DNA of 27,012 bases, taken from a bacterium. Lineage in GTDB: Bacteria; Planctomycetota; J058; JAJDCP01. Made by a program: the position numbers and the translations under genes. Each line of letters begins with the position of its first letter. Position 1 is the stretch's first letter. The notes under the pieces are model-generated. The model ran no database searches and was not told the origin of the DNA. It saw only the letters and a program-made list of their open reading frames with translations. Shown piece after piece: positions 171 through 27,012 of the stretch. The stretch is taken from contig JAUIEM010000090.1 in the NCBI GenBank assembly GCA_030428695.1, positions 1-27,012 on the forward strand, in the 5' to 3' direction.

Positions 171-488
171 TTGGCTACCGAAGTCGAAACCGCTGTCGAC
201 GAGGCCATCCGGCTCGTCCCCCCGTACAACGTGATTCTGCTCAACGATGACGACCACACCTACGAGTACGTGATCCACATGCTCCAGAAGCTGTTCGGCT
301 ACCCGCCCGAGAAGGGCTTCCAGCTGGCGTGCGAGGTCGACACCACCGGGCGGGTGATCGTCCTGACGACGACCCTCGAGCGCGCCGAATTCAAACGCGA
401 TCAGATCCACGCCTTCGGTCCCGACAAGCAGATCCCGCGCTGCAAGGGGTCGATGTCCGCCATCATCGAGCCGGCCCCCGGCTGGTAG
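171..488 (+). CDS. clpS: ATP-dependent Clp protease adaptor ClpS
   Basis: ClpS is a small cytoplasmic adaptor that binds N-degron substrates and delivers them to ClpA/ClpC-ClpP. The 105-residue product carries the family core: PPYNVILLNDDDHTYEYVI near residues 17-35, then LACEVDTTGRVIV in the middle, where ClpS proteins form the substrate pocket. The C-terminal half, with KRDQIHAFGPD and the SMSAIIEPA tail, resembles the ClpS variant I associate with Planctomycetota rather than the E. coli form. Length fits the family. The start is a TTG chosen by ribosome-site spacing; TTG 165 would add two residues. No clpA or clpC is visible. The PP2C phosphatase gene begins 15 bases after the stop, so the two are probably co-transcribed. 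Confidence 0.9.
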   Translation: MATEVETAVDEAIRLVPPYNVILLNDDDHTYEYVIHMLQKLFGYPPEKGFQLACEVDTTGRVIVLTTTLERAEFKRDQIHAFGPDKQIPRCKGSMSAIIEPAPGW

Positions 489-20032: not shown

Positions 20033-21607
20033 CTACGCCAGCGCCTCCGCATCCAGCGCCTGCACCAGCACCGGGCGGCTGAAGGTCAGCAGCGCGTCAC
20101 GCAGCGAGAGCACCCCGAAGCCGGACTTGTCCGTCGCCGTGAAGCCGAAGGAGTCCGGGCCGCGCTGGCAGACGTCGTTGAGGTTGACGCGCGCGACGAG
20201 CGGCGCGAAGCGGCGGACGGCGTCCGCGACCTCGGCGCGCGGCCCCCACAGGCCGATCTGCTGGCCGAACGGAGACTCGCGCTGCCACTGGTGCACCTCC
20301 TCGAGGTTGGCGTAGGGCGCGATCGGGACGATCGGTCCGAACTGTTCCTCCGCGAAGATGCGCATGCGGGGGACGACCGGGAACAGCACCGCCGGGCGCA
20401 TCAGCGAGAAGCTGCCCGCCCCGCCCCCGGCGTTGACGATCCGCGCCCCCTGCGCGGTCGCGTCGGCGATCAGCTCGCGCATCCAGGCGAGCTTGTCCGG
20501 CTCCGGCAGCGGTGTGATCGCGGCGTCCTCCCAGGGCATCCCGACCGACAGCGCCGCGACCTCCGCGGCGACCGCCTCAGCACACTCCTCCCCGAGCGCT
20601 TGCGGCACACAGAGCAGCTTCTCGGCGGTGCAGCGCTGGCCGTTGAAGCCGAGGGCCCCCCGGACGATCGGCGGAACCACCTCCGCCAGCTCGACGCCGG
20701 GCAGGAGCACCGCCGCGTTCTTGGCGCCGAGGCCGAGCACCTTGTGCAGGCTGATCGGCTGCGGATGCTCGCGCATGATCGCGGTCGCGGCACGCTCGCT
20801 GCCGATGAAGGCGAACATGTCGATCGCGGCCCGCCCGCTGCCGTCGCGTGCGCCGATCAGCGACGGGATCACCTCGCGCCCCTCGCCGGGCAGCAGGGCC
20901 ATGGTGCCGGGCGGGAAGCACTCCGCGAAGGCAGACGCGAGCACCATGTTGGCGAGCACGCCGAAGCGGGGCGTCTTCGCGAGCACCACGTTGCCCATCA
21001 GCAGCGCCGGCACCACCGTGGTCAGGAGCTCGTTGACCGGATAGTTGAAGGGCGCGACACACAGCACCCGGCCGATCGGCAGGCGCAGCTCGCGGGCGTG
21101 GTGCACGGTGCTGCCTTTGCGGCCGGTGAACGGGGTGCCGGCCCCCTCCTCGAGGGCGCGCAGCTCGGCGATGGTCTCGCGGATGTAGGCGACGCTGCGG
21201 GTCACCTCCTTGGTCGCCGCGCTCTTCGGCTTGCCGATCTCGAGCATCAGGAGCCGCGCGATCTCGTCGGTGTGCGCGGCGATGCGGGCGGCGAAGCTGG
21301 CGACCGCCGCGCAGCGCCCCTCCGTCGACGCCCGCGGCCACGCGCCGAAGCCCCCGTCCCAGGCGCGCTCGGCCGCTTCCAGCGCCTCCTCCGCCTGCGC
21401 CGCGCCGAGCGCGGCCTGGGCCCCGAGCAGGACCGGCGTCAGGCCCTCTGGCGTGCGTCGGGCGACCCGGCTGTGGACGGGGATGGATGCGCCCGACCAG
21501 CTGCGGACCTCGCCACCGACCAGCCAGCGGGGCGGATGGTCGGCGGGATCGACGCGGCAGGGGCCGGGATGCTCGGGCGGAAACAGCTCCTCCAGCTCGT
21601 CGGACAT
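20033..21607 (-). CDS. Aldehyde dehydrogenase-superfamily protein, GapN-like, lacking the usual catalytic Glu
   Basis: This NAD(P)-dependent aldehyde dehydrogenase-fold protein of 524 residues carries VLCVAPFNYPVNE with catalytic Asn188, LAKTPRFG with the cofactor Lys211, MFAFIGS at 264-270, GFNGQRCTAEK with catalytic Cys326, and EEQFGPIVPI near the C terminus. The general-base motif, normally ELGGK, reads LGLGAKNA at 291-298, so neither position that carries the Glu in ELGGK or GLEAK-type relatives is acidic. Overall the protein resembles non-phosphorylating glyceraldehyde-3-phosphate dehydrogenases (GapN), but substrate is uncertain and catalysis may be altered. GGAGG is 5 bases before the ATG at 21607. 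It is probably its own transcription unit, because a hairpin and a new promoter follow. Confidence 0.85.
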   Translation of the reverse strand: MSDELEELFPPEHPGPCRVDPADHPPRWLVGGEVRSWSGASIPVHSRVARRTPEGLTPVLLGAQAALGAAQAEEALEAAERAWDGGFGAWPRASTEGRCAAVASFAARIAAHTDEIARLLMLEIGKPKSAATKEVTRSVAYIRETIAELRALEEGAGTPFTGRKGSTVHHARELRLPIGRVLCVAPFNYPVNELLTTVVPALLMGNVVLAKTPRFGVLANMVLASAFAECFPPGTMALLPGEGREVIPSLIGARDGSGRAAIDMFAFIGSERAATAIMREHPQPISLHKVLGLGAKNAAVLLPGVELAEVVPPIVRGALGFNGQRCTAEKLLCVPQALGEECAEAVAAEVAALSVGMPWEDAAITPLPEPDKLAWMRELIADATAQGARIVNAGGGAGSFSLMRPAVLFPVVPRMRIFAEEQFGPIVPIAPYANLEEVHQWQRESPFGQQIGLWGPRAEVADAVRRFAPLVARVNLNDVCQRGPDSFGFTATDKSGFGVLSLRDALLTFSRPVLVQALDAEALA

Positions 21608-21767
21608 CGCTTCCTCCAGCGCAGACGTTGTGCCGCCACTGTAAGGCCCTCTTCGCGACTTTACATCCCCTCTCTGGGTCCGACCGCCGGAAGCGGCCCG
21701 CCAGGCGGATCCGGCTCGGGCACGCGATGTGTATCCACGCCTCCCGTACCGACGACGGAGGCTCCCC
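21608..21767. promoter_or_regulatory. Divergent intergenic region, ALDH / repeat-protein module
   Basis: These 160 bases separate the divergent aldehyde dehydrogenase and repeat-protein genes and must hold both promoters. The part near 21636-21665 is the least GC-rich, but I find no pair of hexamers with good spacing. Confidence 0.3.
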
Positions 21768-22895
21768 ATGCCCGCACTCGCCCAGGCCCGCATCGAGCTC
21801 GGCCCTCGGCCGGAGAACCGCTACCAGCTGCGCTCCGGCAAGCGCTACCGCATCGTAGTGGGGCGCCGCGTCCAGGTCTTCGCCCGGCTCTTCGACGCGG
21901 CGGGCGAGCAGCCGCTCGCCGACCTCCCCTACCGCCTGCAGCTCCCCGACGGCAGCGCCCTCGCGGGCCGCACCGACACCACCGGCCTCCTGCGCCACCG
22001 GCCGCTCCCGCCCGGGACCTTCCGGCTCGAGCTCGACGACCCCCACGGCACGCCGCGGAGCCTGGCGCTGCCCTTCCTCGGGCTCGAGCGTGAAGCCCCC
22101 CACCTGCAGACCGTGCCCGGCTTCGGCACGAAGGTGCAGGTCTTCGTCCAGCTCTTCGACGCGACCGGCGCGGCGCCGCTCGCCGGACGGGCCTACCGCC
22201 TGCGCGGCCCCGACGGGGAGCGGCGCGGCCTGTGCGACGGGGCGGGGGTGCTGCGCGAGCGCGGCTGCGTCCCCGGAAACTACACCCTCGTCATCCGCGA
22301 CGCGGGCACCGACCGCACCGTCGGCGTGCCCTGGCTGGAGGCGCACCGCGCCACCCCCCACCGCCAGGTCGTGCCCGGGATTACGCTGGAACCCGCCCAT
22401 CAGCTCCTCGTCCGGCTGTTCGACGCCACGAGCCGCCGGCCGCTGGCCGGAGTGCCCTGCCGCCTCGAAGGGCCGGACGGCGCCCGGCACGACCTCGTCA
22501 CCGACCCGGACGGCCTCCTGCGCCAGCCGGCAGCCCCTGGCCGCTGGACCCTGCAGGCGACCGCGCCCGATGGCAGGGCGCTCCGTCGAGGCCTGCCCGC
22601 GTTGCCGGCGGCCGCCGAGGCGCCGGTGCTGCTCGCCCTGCCCTGGGGCCTCGCCGGGCCGCGCCAGGTGCGTATCCAGCTCTTCGGCCGCGACGGGAAG
22701 CCCCGGGCCGGCCTGGCCTGGAGCCTCGAGGCCGGCGGCGAGGAGGTCGCGCGCGGCAGCAGCGACCCCGCGGGGCGGATCGAGGCGCGCGGCCTCGACG
22801 ACCGGCCCTGCTCCCTGCGTCTCGCCGGCGCACCCGCGCAGCGGGTGCCCTTCAGCGAGGGCGCCCCGCATCTCCTGCTCGTCCCGACCTCCTGA
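21768..22895 (+). CDS. Four-repeat beta-sandwich-like protein of unknown function
   Basis: This 375-residue protein has no signal peptide or membrane segment. It is almost wholly four copies of a unit of about 70-90 residues, at roughly 36-105, 123-190, 211-290 and 299-370. Each opens with VQVFARLFDA / VQVFVQLFDA / HQLLVRLFDA / RQVRIQLFGR, then PLAGxxYRLxxPDG, and a glycine turn with PPGTFRLEL-like strands. This is the pattern of Ig-like or carboxypeptidase-regulatory-like beta sandwiches found as add-on domains in VgrG/tail-spike and LysM proteins of contractile injection systems, a resemblance rather than an assignment. GGAGG lies 6 bases before the ATG at 21768. The next gene starts 12 bases after its stop, so the two are almost certainly one operon. 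Confidence 0.75.
   Translation: MPALAQARIELGPRPENRYQLRSGKRYRIVVGRRVQVFARLFDAAGEQPLADLPYRLQLPDGSALAGRTDTTGLLRHRPLPPGTFRLELDDPHGTPRSLALPFLGLEREAPHLQTVPGFGTKVQVFVQLFDATGAAPLAGRAYRLRGPDGERRGLCDGAGVLRERGCVPGNYTLVIRDAGTDRTVGVPWLEAHRATPHRQVVPGITLEPAHQLLVRLFDATSRRPLAGVPCRLEGPDGARHDLVTDPDGLLRQPAAPGRWTLQATAPDGRALRRGLPALPAAAEAPVLLALPWGLAGPRQVRIQLFGRDGKPRAGLAWSLEAGGEEVARGSSDPAGRIEARGLDDRPCSLRLAGAPAQRVPFSEGAPHLLLVPTS
21873..22877 (+). repeat. Four degenerate tandem coding repeats
   Basis: The units span about 21873-22082, 22134-22337, 22398-22637 and 22662-22877. They are recognisable at protein level by the LFDA...PLAG...PDG framework. The fourth is the most diverged, which suggests old duplications. 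Confidence 0.65.
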
Positions 22896-22907
22896 GGAAC
22901 CCGCACC

Positions 22908-25900
22908 ATGAGCCAGACCCTTGTCGCGCGCTTCGCGCCTTCGATCATCCCCACCCCGGAGAGCCTGAAGGACCGGCGGGAGAGCCTGTCCAGCCACATC
23001 GATGACGCCCTCGCCGCCATCGAGGACCTGCGCGGGCGCATCCGCGACCGGAGCGGTCGCGCGCGCAGCCTGAAGATCGACCTCGAGGCCGAGGAGCGGA
23101 AGCTCGACACCCTGCGCGACCACTTCGACAACGACCGCGTCGAGGACTTCGAGACCGCGATCGTCGTCGAGAACCCGACCCGCCGGACCGGCAAGCTGGT
23201 CGTGCGGCTGTGGGAGCTCGACAGCTTCCTCGACACCCGCGCCGCCCGGCCCGACTACGCCACCGACCAGGCCCACGCGACCGTCACCGCGGGCGCGGGC
23301 GGCAGCTTCGTCCAGGAGGGGACCGGCGGGCGCCTGAGCGAAGATCCCTCCCGCAAGACCAAGCACGACTTCATCGCCGCCTTCGAGGGGGAGCTGACCG
23401 CCGAGGGCTTCCGCTGCGACGAGCTCGTGCTGCCCGACGTGTACGAGAAGGGGAAGCGGCGGCCGAGGCTGCGGGTGCGGGTCCCGGGCCGCGCGGAGCC
23501 GTACGAGCTGTACGTGCAGCGAGACGAGCTCGAAGAGGAAGGCCGCTACCTCGAGCTCGGCCTCGAGCTCGAGCTCGACGGAGAGGTCGTGTACTCGACG
23601 AAGGGCTCGAAGGAGGTCGCGCCGGCCTTCGTCGATCTCGAGCGCTGGACCTCCTACAACCGGGTCGTCGCCCGGGGTCTGGAGGAAGCGCGACGCCTGG
23701 CGCGGGAGCAGGAGTCGCGCGAGAGCCTCGAGGTCGGCGACATCGTCGTCCGCATCGATCCGAACATCATCCCCTCCCCCGCCCAGCGCGACGCCCGCAT
23801 GGACAAGCTCCAGGAACGCCTCGACGACCTCGACCGGCAGCTCTCCACCCGGCGCGCCCGGGCCCGGCGGCTCACGCGCGCCTGCGCCGCGGCGCGCGGC
23901 CCCGAAGAGCGGGAGGAGTGTGTCGCGGACGTGATGGACAACGCCGCCGCGATCGACACGCTGCTGTGGGAGCGGCGCAGGGAGAGCGAGAAGCTCGCAG
24001 GCCCCCTGCTCGACAGCTTCAGCGCCCGGCTGCACATCGACAACCCGAAGGGACACGAGGGCGCGCTCTCCATCAAGCTGTACGAGCTCGACACCTTCGA
24101 GGACGGCCGGGCGCGCGCCCCGGACTACGCGACCGACCAGCCGGACGCCGTGGTCGCCGGGAAGACCGTGAGAGAGGGCGGGAAGGACGACTTCCTCGCG
24201 GTCTTCCGCGGCACGCTGCAGGCCGACGGCAGCTTCGCCTGCGACGACTTCCAGCTCGCGAAGGAGGAGCAGCCCGACCGCCATCTGATCGGCGCCCCGC
24301 GGCTCAAGATCCGGCTTCCCGGCGACACGAAGCGCTACGAGCTGCCCCTCGAGGGCGACCCGGACGAGAACGAGGGCCGCTTCCTCGAGCTCGGCCTGAC
24401 CGCGGAGCTCGGCACCCAGCTCGCGTACTCGACGCTCGCCGGCAGCGGCGTCGCCCCGGCCTTCATCGACCTCGGCGCCTGGACGAAGCTCGACGGCTGG
24501 GCCCACAACCGCCTCGGCCAGAAGAAGAAGGGCAGCGACGCCCCGCTCGAGGACGACGAGACCGACACGCGCGCCCTGCCGAACCCCGCCGAGATCAACA
24601 ACCGCGCCCTGCGCCTGATCACGATCCCGAAGCCGGTCGGCGCCCAGCGCTTCCGCTTCACACCGGAGTCGAAGGACGGCGCGGAGCCGACCGACTACGC
24701 GACCGAGATGGGCAGCGCCGCCGACTACGCCGTCGCCGACCTGCTCGGCAAGTACTACCCGCGCTACAACCCCGGGGCCCTGCGCAAGCGGATGATCGTC
24801 GAGCACCAGATGCTCGGGCTGACCGTCTCGAGCTACCCGGGAGGCGGACGGGCCTACGTACGCGATGTGTTTAACTCCTTTTATGTGATCGTCCACACCT
24901 CCGTCGAAGACATCTGGGAGGAAGAGCGCGACGGCTCGAGCTACGTCCACGCCAAGGTCCGCCTCGAGCGGGTGTGCATGACCGACGAGGGCGAGGCGCA
25001 GTGGCTGAACAACCAGACCGGCGAGAAGCTGCCGCGCGGGGAGTGGCCGCCGGAGGTCGCGTCGTGCGACTGGACGATGATCGACACCGGCCAGCTCTAC
25101 GAGAGCTTCACCGGCCAGAGCTTCGTCACCCTCGCTCCCGAGCTGCGGCCGCGCGTCGATGGCAGCACCGAGCGCGGCATCCTGCGGGCCCGGAAGGACG
25201 CCGACCACGACCCGATCTGGGCCCGGCGGGCGGTCGAGAAGGCGGCGCTCGAGGCGGTCGGCCAGCTGCTCGCCGCGCTCCGCACGGTCGCCCTGCCGGA
25301 CCTGCTGAAGATCCGCGGCATGGGCCGGGTCGACGACAGCGGCGCGGCCGACATCCCCGCCCCGGGCTCGACCAGCAACCGCGAGCTGCGGCTGATCGAG
25401 ATCCTCGACAAGGACACCGCCCAGCAGCTGCGCTACCTGCCGAACCCGCGATCGGCGAGCCGCGACGCGGTGCTCGCCGACCTGCACGGGCTGGTCGCCG
25501 ACAGCCTGGCCGACCAGCTCGGCAAGCACTACCGCCGCTACGACTTCGGCGCGCTGGTCAAGAGCAGGGTCGTCGAGTCGCAGTTCCTCCACGTCCGCCT
25601 CGACGACCATCCCGGCGGCGCGGCGGGCTTCTTCCAGGACCTCGCCAACCAGGTGCACATCATCCTCGGCTACGGGATCGAGGACATCTGGACCGAGGAG
25701 CGGGACGGCGACAAGTTCCTCCACGCCCGGGTCTACCTCCGGCGGGTGTGCATGACGGCCTTCGACCCCGAGAAGGTCAGGATGATCGACCTCTGCAGCG
25801 GCCAGGCGACGCGGGACTGGACCTCGGCCACCGCGATGGTGAAGTTGCTGCCGCTGACCGTGCTGTCATCGGCATCGAGATCCAGCGATGGCGGCTGGTT

Positions 25901-26012
25901 GACGACGTCGCCGCCCCCATTGCCGTCGTCGCCGTCACCGTCGTCCCTGCCACCGTCGGTGCCGGCGTCGATGCGGCTGCCGTCGGTGGTCTCCTCGTCG
26001 CAGCCGGCGTAG
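22908..26012 (+). CDS. Large double-duplicated protein, unknown family, 3' end replaced
   Basis: The open frame is 1034 codons, but only residues 1 to about 975 look native. Two homologous A units (8-250 and 280-528) each have IIPTPES/IIPSPAQ, a charged coiled-coil stretch of about 60 residues or more, LWELDSF/LYELDTF, PDYATDQ, LELGL and VAPAFVDL/VAPAFIDL. Two B units (562-735 and 822-972) share NRxLRLI, LGKYYPRYN/LGKHYRRYD, VEDIWEEERDG/IEDIWTEERDG, RLERVCMT/YLRRVCMT and DWT. There is no signal peptide or membrane helix, and I recognise no family. GAGGAA is about 9 bases before the ATG. After DWTSATAM the frame runs through the antisense of a PKD-protein gene, giving a Ser/Pro-rich tail that is probably artefactual. 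Confidence 0.75.
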   Translation: MSQTLVARFAPSIIPTPESLKDRRESLSSHIDDALAAIEDLRGRIRDRSGRARSLKIDLEAEERKLDTLRDHFDNDRVEDFETAIVVENPTRRTGKLVVRLWELDSFLDTRAARPDYATDQAHATVTAGAGGSFVQEGTGGRLSEDPSRKTKHDFIAAFEGELTAEGFRCDELVLPDVYEKGKRRPRLRVRVPGRAEPYELYVQRDELEEEGRYLELGLELELDGEVVYSTKGSKEVAPAFVDLERWTSYNRVVARGLEEARRLAREQESRESLEVGDIVVRIDPNIIPSPAQRDARMDKLQERLDDLDRQLSTRRARARRLTRACAAARGPEEREECVADVMDNAAAIDTLLWERRRESEKLAGPLLDSFSARLHIDNPKGHEGALSIKLYELDTFEDGRARAPDYATDQPDAVVAGKTVREGGKDDFLAVFRGTLQADGSFACDDFQLAKEEQPDRHLIGAPRLKIRLPGDTKRYELPLEGDPDENEGRFLELGLTAELGTQLAYSTLAGSGVAPAFIDLGAWTKLDGWAHNRLGQKKKGSDAPLEDDETDTRALPNPAEINNRALRLITIPKPVGAQRFRFTPESKDGAEPTDYATEMGSAADYAVADLLGKYYPRYNPGALRKRMIVEHQMLGLTVSSYPGGGRAYVRDVFNSFYVIVHTSVEDIWEEERDGSSYVHAKVRLERVCMTDEGEAQWLNNQTGEKLPRGEWPPEVASCDWTMIDTGQLYESFTGQSFVTLAPELRPRVDGSTERGILRARKDADHDPIWARRAVEKAALEAVGQLLAALRTVALPDLLKIRGMGRVDDSGAADIPAPGSTSNRELRLIEILDKDTAQQLRYLPNPRSASRDAVLADLHGLVADSLADQLGKHYRRYDFGALVKSRVVESQFLHVRLDDHPGGAAGFFQDLANQVHIILGYGIEDIWTEERDGDKFLHARVYLRRVCMTAFDPEKVRMIDLCSGQATRDWTSATAMVKLLPLTVLSSASRSSDGGWLTTSPPPLPSSPSPSSLPPSVPASMRLPSVVSSSQPA
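22929..24491 (+). repeat. A1-A2 internal duplication
   Basis: Two coding copies of about 245 codons, 22929-23657 and 23745-24491. Shared landmarks at protein level are IIPxP, ELDxF, PDYATDQ, DDFLAVF/HDFIAAF, LELGL and VAPAF. The central coiled-coil part is the least conserved. Confidence 0.75.
24591..25823 (+). repeat. B1-B2 internal duplication
   Basis: Two coding copies, 24591-25112 and 25371-25823. They share LGKxYxRY, the VE(S/H)Q(M/F)L strand, EDIWxEERDG and RRVCMT-type motifs. The second copy is cut just after the DWT that both share, which marks how far the native gene can be followed. Confidence 0.7.
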
Positions 26013-27012
26013 CTGACCGTCGGTATCGCGTCGGTACTGCCGTCGTCGTCGCTGTCACCGTCGTCATTGTCCGCTTCATCACCATCGCCGCCCGCCCCGT
26101 CGCCGTCGCTTCCGTCGGTGGTGGGCACCGACAGTGGCTGGTTGCCGGACACGCTGAAGTGCAGGCTGTCCGACACCGCGTGGAAGCCGTCGTTGACGAA
26201 CAGCGTGGCGGTGTAGTCGCCGTCGGCAAGGTCGGCGACGCACGGGTACTCGCCCACCCGTACCTGCTCCTCGCCGTCGATCTGCCAGCGGTAGTCGAGC
26301 GGCAGTGGCCCCCCGTCCGGGTCGAAGGACGATGAGCCGTCCAGCCGCAGCACGTCGCGGCGGGTGCGGGACAGCCCGGCCACCGCTTGCGGACGGCTGG
26401 TGAACAGCGGCGCCTCGCCGCGCTCGAAGCGGATCACCTGGTCGATCAGGGTGAAGGGCTGGATGCCGCCGGTATTGGTGTTCTGGCGGAACTGGATGCG
26501 TATCGACTGGTCGAGGAAGCGACGGGTGTCGAAGTAGTGCACGTAGAAGCGACCGTCGCGGGGTTCGCCGGGGCAGCCCTCGCGCAGGCGCACCACGCTG
26601 GTCTGGAAGGGCTGGGCGGTGAGCACCTCGCCGTCCTCGGTGAGGATGCGAACCTCGAACTCCACCGGACGCACCACGCGCTTGCCGTCGCGGGTGCCGG
26701 TCAGGCTGGCGAAGACGATGCCGTCGCCGGCGACGAAGGGGTCGGAGGTGAGGATGCCCACCGAGCTGCGGCGACCGCTTTCCCCGGAGCGCAGCAATGC
26801 CGCGTGGCGGCCGAACAGGCTGATGCGGGTGGTGTCTTCGGCGGAGAAGCATTCCCCGGCGGTGACCACGTCCACCTGGCCGTCGCGGCTGCCCTGTGCC
26901 TCCCAGCCGATCAGTGAGCCGGCTTCGAAGTCGCCGTTCGGCAGCAGGCCGGCGGCCGTCGCCGGACCGGCGACCAGGCCGGCCAGCGCACATGCCCGCG
27001 AAATCCGTCGCT
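25733..27012 (-). CDS. PKD-domain secreted protein, partial at both ends
   Basis: The minus-strand frame runs in from beyond 27012. Its first visible residues (RRISRACALAGLVAGPATAAG) look like the rest of a signal peptide, followed by LLPNGDFEAGSLIGWE, a start typical of carbohydrate-binding-like beta-sandwich domains. A PKD domain follows (AGLSRTRRDVLRLDGSSSFDPDGG to VNDGFHAVSDSLHFSVSG), then an Asp/Gly-rich linker of about 70 residues and NQPPSLDLDADDS, which usually begins a further extracellular domain. Native sequence appears to stop near 25840; beyond that the frame is the antisense of the upstream gene's B2 unit until a stop at 25733. It is probably an exported calcium-binding surface protein. 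Its lower GC and different codon use suggest another origin. Confidence 0.7.
   Translation of the reverse strand, partial: RRISRACALAGLVAGPATAAGLLPNGDFEAGSLIGWEAQGSRDGQVDVVTAGECFSAEDTTRISLFGRHAALLRSGESGRRSSVGILTSDPFVAGDGIVFASLTGTRDGKRVVRPVEFEVRILTEDGEVLTAQPFQTSVVRLREGCPGEPRDGRFYVHYFDTRRFLDQSIRIQFRQNTNTGGIQPFTLIDQVIRFERGEAPLFTSRPQAVAGLSRTRRDVLRLDGSSSFDPDGGPLPLDYRWQIDGEEQVRVGEYPCVADLADGDYTATLFVNDGFHAVSDSLHFSVSGNQPLSVPTTDGSDGDGAGGDGDEADNDDGDSDDDGSTDAIPTVSYAGCDEETTDGSRIDAGTDGGRDDGDGDDGNGGGDVVNQPPSLDLDADDSTVSGSNFTIAVAEVQSRVAWPLQRSIILTFSGSKAVMHTRRR
25900..26125 (-). repeat. Low-complexity Asp/Gly-rich coding tract
   Basis: Iterated GAC-GGC-like codons encode runs such as DGSDGDGAGGDGDEADNDDG and DGGRDDGDGDDGNGGGD on the minus strand. 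Such tracts often bind calcium in secreted proteins. The simple repeat content also makes the segment prone to assembly error. Confidence 0.6.

Follow-up and report, generated by a model that had tools for sequence, protein, structure and literature searches.

Two adjacent genes for repeat-built proteins in a planctomycetotal contig: a candidate scaffold and adaptor pair

What might two neighbouring genes do when both encode proteins built from repeats and neither product reaches the curated cut-off of any Pfam family? This question is raised by a 27,012-nucleotide contig from a bacterium of the Planctomycetota (J058, JAJDCP01; GenBank assembly GCA_030428695.1, contig JAUIEM010000090.1), treated here at its full length as the window. 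Near its 3′ end lie gene S and, on the same strand, gene P, whose ATG is at 22908. The original prediction of a 375-residue protein followed after 12 bases by a second gene agrees with the coordinates of the open reading frames (ORFs), and this spacing suggests co-expression. The answer preferred here, a plausible one that is held tentatively, is that S and P are an operon of two genes, probably with coupled translation, for non-enzymatic scaffold or adaptor proteins, placed in the cytoplasm because no export signal was seen. S would be a string of prealbumin/transthyretin-like docking domains and P a larger scaffold, consisting of two units that each join a coiled-coil hairpin to a beta domain, and two alpha/beta units. 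The repeats of S would bind P, a third partner or both, thereby assembling or delivering that partner. By analogy, docking modules and scaffold are the most likely roles of the S repeats and of P, the latter because P is co-encoded with S and lacks an enzyme signature. The interaction of the two proteins, their scaffold or adaptor role and their site of action are what we infer.

P consists of two unrelated tandem duplications, as had been predicted. Units N1 and N2 are 34% identical (E 1e-38, 124 bits; best of 500 shuffles, 25.4) and units C1 and C2 are 42% identical (E 1e-36, 114 bits; best of 500 shuffles, 22.7), while the N half matches the C half at E 1.0 only. The same N-N-C-C layout occurs in P0002, a protein of 1048 residues with a complete C-terminus that is encoded on a 74,339-base NCBI contig and is 59% identical to P over 981 aligned columns. 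Because the four-unit architecture is kept at this level of identity, P is, as judged from sequence conservation, a real and selected protein; having one convincing relative of this kind implies that it does something. P0002 is the only relative at E<=0.001 besides P itself (7993 candidates scored, from 5.8 billion protein clusters). Exact-short-peptide scans, which reach close relatives only, gave no further ones in genome contigs (P and P0002 as queries) or viral contigs (P), and P had no match among plasmids. None of 7994 candidates in the protein collection, taken from a length range outside which P and P0002 themselves fall, matched a profile of all P units at E<=10. Two phage matches of P, at E 2 with 5% coverage and at E 8 with 11%, were taken as chance. 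The P family is nearly without known members, and the pair deserves to be put on record as an orphan family.

The original prediction of no recognisable catalytic motif agrees with the searches, in which no enzyme family was found for S or P in Pfam, NCBIfam or PHROGs. For P, no enzyme or housekeeping family appeared in Pfam at E<=0.1 or in PDB. NCBIfam gave only coiled-coil-type matches (E 0.11 and 0.21), PHROGs gave two unnamed families (E 0.0021 and 0.063) and none of known function, and a P unit profile matched only coiled-coil-type PDB chains (E>=0.075). P0002 has weak Pfam matches to CIA30 (7e-5; 23.4 bits, cut-off 24) and OmpH (0.0047). A CIA30 identity was not adopted, the match being just below the cut-off in P0002 and not found in P or in pieces of P; a TssJ-like reading of the N unit was dropped, having no Pfam support. 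S and P had no match in PADLOC, and the matches of P0002 there were no better than E 0.026; a reading as anti-phage defence was rejected on this outcome.

The usable structural model of P spans a single N unit and a single C unit, with a mean predicted local distance difference test (pLDDT) score of 61; prediction of P0002 with P gave a pLDDT of 34 and no usable model. Foldseek with the usable model found no PDB match at E<=0.001 and two viral matches at that threshold, both with template modelling (TM) scores <0.2. The VIA list consisted mostly of coiled coils on model residues 11-96, leaving the N unit's beta domain almost uncovered. The C-terminal unit may have a CsgG/TolB-N-like fold, a borderline assignment. 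This likeness underlies a further explanation, in which the C-terminal half of P is an envelope-assembly module of the CsgG/LpoB/TolB-N type and the pair serves cell-envelope biogenesis. A likeness in topology to CsgG, TolB-N and LpoB is possible for the C units, whereas P is not a lipoprotein by sequence; such a role has only a slim chance of being correct.

S, for its part, contains three clear prealbumin/transthyretin-like units. The first two align at 72.0 bits (best of 500 shuffles, 23.9), and the third aligns with each of them at 43.9 bits (best shuffles 20.8 with the first and 18.9 with the second, 500 each). Four repeats had been predicted, and the fourth proves weak: pairwise it does not rise above shuffles (24.3 bits against 25.0 with the second unit, 20.4 against 21.6 with the first, 16.2 against 20.4 with the third), and it is backed solely by a profile of the other three (13.9 bits; best of 1000 shuffles, 8.6). 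The best Pfam scores of S, 24 bits for CarboxypepD_reg (PF13620; cut-off 32.3) and 17.4 for the SpaA prealbumin-like domain (PF17802; cut-off 23.1), leave membership unproven but not excluded. Both domains share their sequence pattern with S. S differs from proteins of these types in its sub-cut-off scores, in showing no signal peptide and in having no sortase family among the scanned ORFs of the window (27 distinct ones, including S, P and a PKD frame, from 98 of at least 100 residues, many in overlapping frames). Neither a membrane helix nor a signal peptide was detected in S or P by a simple 19-residue hydropathy measure (maxima 1.38 and 1.26), which upholds the prediction that both are absent.

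Repeat 1 of S (residues 41-75, 35 positions) matches positions 125-159 of the 181 of PHROG 5348 with E 1.7e-9. The family is labelled 'unknown function', and the three members scanned, Burkholderia phage KL3 gp51, a B. vietnamiensis plasmid gene and an Acinetobacter plasmid gene, have a PAAR domain (PF05488; 65-83 bits) at the N-terminus and match the family over nearly its whole length. Because they carry this N-terminal PAAR domain, the S unit resembles the domain that follows it. Scored with a profile built from the four S units, the three PAAR proteins reach 24.8, 24.5 and 17.9 bits, against 5.8 for the best of 600 shuffles; these proteins were picked by tblastn with S itself and are not an independent sample. 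While the C-terminal domain of PAAR proteins such as KL3 gp51 is like repeat 1 of S, S itself has no PAAR domain at E<=0.1, carries three to four tandem copies and is followed by P instead of toxin and immunity genes. S as a PAAR protein was rejected, since it has no PAAR motif. These matches of S units, to domains of PAAR proteins and of one contractile-injection locus, speak for the scaffold and adaptor pair. According to the portions of the literature consulted, VgrG spikes have transthyretin (TTR)-like domains to which effectors bind and which determine effector specificity (PMC7376260, PMC7043769; PMC3173608 likewise shows TTR domains on VgrG), and transthyretin-like domains are listed among the signatures of type VI secretion system (T6SS) effectors (PMC11925235). 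In the same portions no free-standing multi-copy TTR-like protein resembling S was found, and one may still be in print.

The same evidence bears on a second explanation, in which a contractile injection system of the T6SS or extracellular (eCIS) type, encoded elsewhere, has S and P as accessory parts, namely a cargo adaptor and, with it, a cargo or structural scaffold. The S repeats would then be like the TTR-like add-on domains of VgrG and PAAR proteins and would tie P to the spike. Besides the PHROG 5348 match and the loading of effectors by VgrG TTR domains in the papers just cited, gene context is consistent with this. A tblastn search with repeat 1 returned 13 plasmid and 5 phage records at E<=10, and five of the 13 plasmid matches lie within or adjoining PAAR, VgrG or sheath genes (two B. 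vietnamiensis PAAR genes, one Acinetobacter PAAR gene, a Caballeronia stretch upstream of vgrG and a Treponema prealbumin-like gene). Two of the five phage records are the same PAAR gene of phage KL3, and the Treponema succinifaciens prealbumin-like protein is a separate gene product, its gene lying downstream of the sheath, tail and VgrG/Pvc8 genes at a distance of a few genes. However, none of the tblastn matches is individually significant (E 2-9), S lacks the PAAR domain, P matches no PHROG of known function and a SpaA pilin matches the S units equally well. Sheath, tube, VgrG, PAAR and AAA+ genes are absent from all 27 scanned ORFs, the downstream side being lost at a junction near 25818. 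A role as a structural part of an injection-type apparatus is possible, if undemonstrated, and this second explanation is considered unlikely. Although put forward as the best candidate in the window for an undescribed system, the pair is not established as one.

Returning to the scaffold and adaptor pair, four points weigh against it. First, in a specificity control with the S-unit profile on ten proteins (five of them from Treponema; best of 1000 shuffles, 7.8 bits), a Streptomyces SpaA-type sortase-associated pilin scored 24.5 bits among the matches listed, on a par with the top PAAR proteins; also among these were the T. succinifaciens prealbumin-like protein (17.7) and a second B. vietnamiensis PAAR protein (16.9). 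By sequence, S is as close to a pilin domain as to a spike domain. Second, no relative of S was found at E<=0.001 among 7990 candidates scored in the protein collection, nor at E<=0.01 among plasmids and phages, nor in viral contigs. Third, the pairing of S and P may be non-obligate: with no S relative detected, nothing points to an S gene on the P0002 contig. Fourth, P might contain an unrecognised catalytic domain that a model of such modest mean pLDDT would not reveal. As the pilin score equals those of the PAAR proteins, the resemblance of S is to the prealbumin/transthyretin-like superfamily, judged from sequence, and does not single out the injection machine. The LFDxxGxPLAGxxYRL-type motif had been tied to spikes; the PHROG 5348 and PAAR matches show the tie to be real, and the pilin score makes it non-specific.

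A third explanation follows these points to their end: S would be a prealbumin-like repeat protein of the ordinary kind, P an orphan unrelated to it that happens to lie alongside, and the two would share no system. A relative was detected for P and none for S, the identified genes upstream of S are housekeeping or metabolic, and the prealbumin-like domain is common, since the S profile also fits a pilin and PHROG 5348 has matches at E<=1 in two of 14 control genomes. This is a minority possibility of some substance, set against which are the 12-base same-strand spacing and the features that the two have in common: construction from repeats, absence of an export signal and high GC at third codon positions (0.962 for gene P).

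The end of P needs a correction. It had been described as at least 975 residues in an ORF running to 26012, with a broken 3′ end; the break stands, while native P stops near 25818, after about 970 residues. The frame is open to 26012, but its last ~64 codons are not P. The alignment with P0002 ends at P residue 978 at the latest, the last firm matches lying at ~970, whereas P0002 continues for ~80 residues and completes the second C unit. From ~25820 the opposite strand reads as the end of a PKD-type gene (reverse ORF 27010-25733; PKD_4 E 7e-4, 20 bits, cut-off 27). The tetranucleotide distance of 25823-27012 to the rest is 0.409, above that of all 82 comparable pieces (maximum 0.386), to which its Asp/Gly-rich coding may contribute. 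Since the P0002 similarity ends, the PKD strand begins and the composition changes here, the end at 26012 is not P's own, and P as one intact protein of 1034 residues was rejected. The contig is probably chimeric or rearranged near 25818, through either an assembly error or a real rearrangement. On the minus strand, 25818-27012 holds a fragment of the PKD-type protein with weak PKD_4 and REJ matches, both sub-cut-off, tail-to-tail with P. In the protein collection S occurs on two contigs and the 1034-residue form of P on only one, so that the second contig may show the true continuation. The features are collected in Table 1.

Table 1. Coordinates of the S and P genes, their repeat units and the related features.
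Feature	Coordinates	Strand	Remarks
Gene S	21768..22895	+	375 residues; ATG 21768, stop 22895; GGAG upstream
S repeats	residues ~29-118, 119-206, 207-285, weak fourth 286-375	+	scored against shuffles
Gene P, native part	22908..25817	+	~970 residues, C-terminus missing; 59% identical to P0002
P unit N1	22908..23735	+	helical hairpin and beta-rich domain, by similarity to N2
P unit N2	23736..24572	+	helical hairpin and beta-rich domain; model pLDDT 56-91 per block in 24 of the first 26 ten-residue blocks
P unit C1	24573..25349	+	alpha/beta domain, possibly CsgG/TolB-N-like
P unit C2	25350..25817	+	cut inside the domain; P0002 runs ~80 residues further
Non-native tail of the open frame	25818..26012	+	antisense of the PKD-type gene; P0002 similarity ends
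PHROG 5348 members scanned	L003:524-1033, L004:2117-2647, L005:2141-2692		PAAR and C-terminal domain

A more ambitious version of the proposal can also be stated. S and P could be the core of an undescribed assembly in which S, a soluble multi-TTR adaptor, loads or clusters the scaffold P onto a secretion machine, of injection type or otherwise, whose genes lie elsewhere in the genome, P being the founder of a family that combines a coiled-coil/beta module with a cytoplasmic CsgG-like module; this is regarded as improbable. If S were indeed a free-standing multi-copy docking domain of injection spikes, it would multiply cargo sites in a novel manner. Otherwise, the case shows the LFDxxGxPLAGxxYRL motif to be a superfamily signature that by itself is no evidence for an injection system.

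In the rest of the window, Pfam identified, among others, ClpS, a PP2C phosphatase, acyl-CoA dehydrogenase, ETF beta and alpha, phosphoglucomutase, LysR, two glycosyltransferases, a PMT-type mannosyltransferase, a tricorn-like protease, Ni-superoxide dismutase, PTS EIIA, SIS and aldehyde dehydrogenase. The stretch 21550-22950 yielded no site resembling a promoter or a terminator.

Gene context was inspected directly for 10 of the 18 tblastn matches to S and taken from the listed annotation for the others. The remaining eight plasmid matches comprise the SpaA pilin, an XdhC gene, three matches over a VirB3 gene, a Klebsiella match with no listed gene, and unannotated Halorussus and B. stagnalis stretches; of the remaining phage records, two are from Staphylococcus and unannotated, and the third is an Arthrobacter exonuclease. 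On Caballeronia grimmiae plasmid p1, the matching stretch (L017:2651-3193 and L017:2866-3150) is unannotated and frame-split, with a start that is PAAR-like as judged by eye and a prealbumin-like end in a different frame. Treponema succinifaciens plasmid pTRESU01 (L020, 15000-50000) holds a contractile-injection locus with sheath, LysM, three VgrG/Pvc8 and PAAR genes and the prealbumin-like protein. Behind the PAAR gene of phage KL3 and that of the B. vietnamiensis plasmid come VRR-NUC and immunity-type genes, the latter being DUF3396 in KL3 and 'type VI immunity family' in L004; according to the part of the source consulted, antibacterial TseV effectors and their DUF3396 immunity proteins have this layout (PMC9635880).
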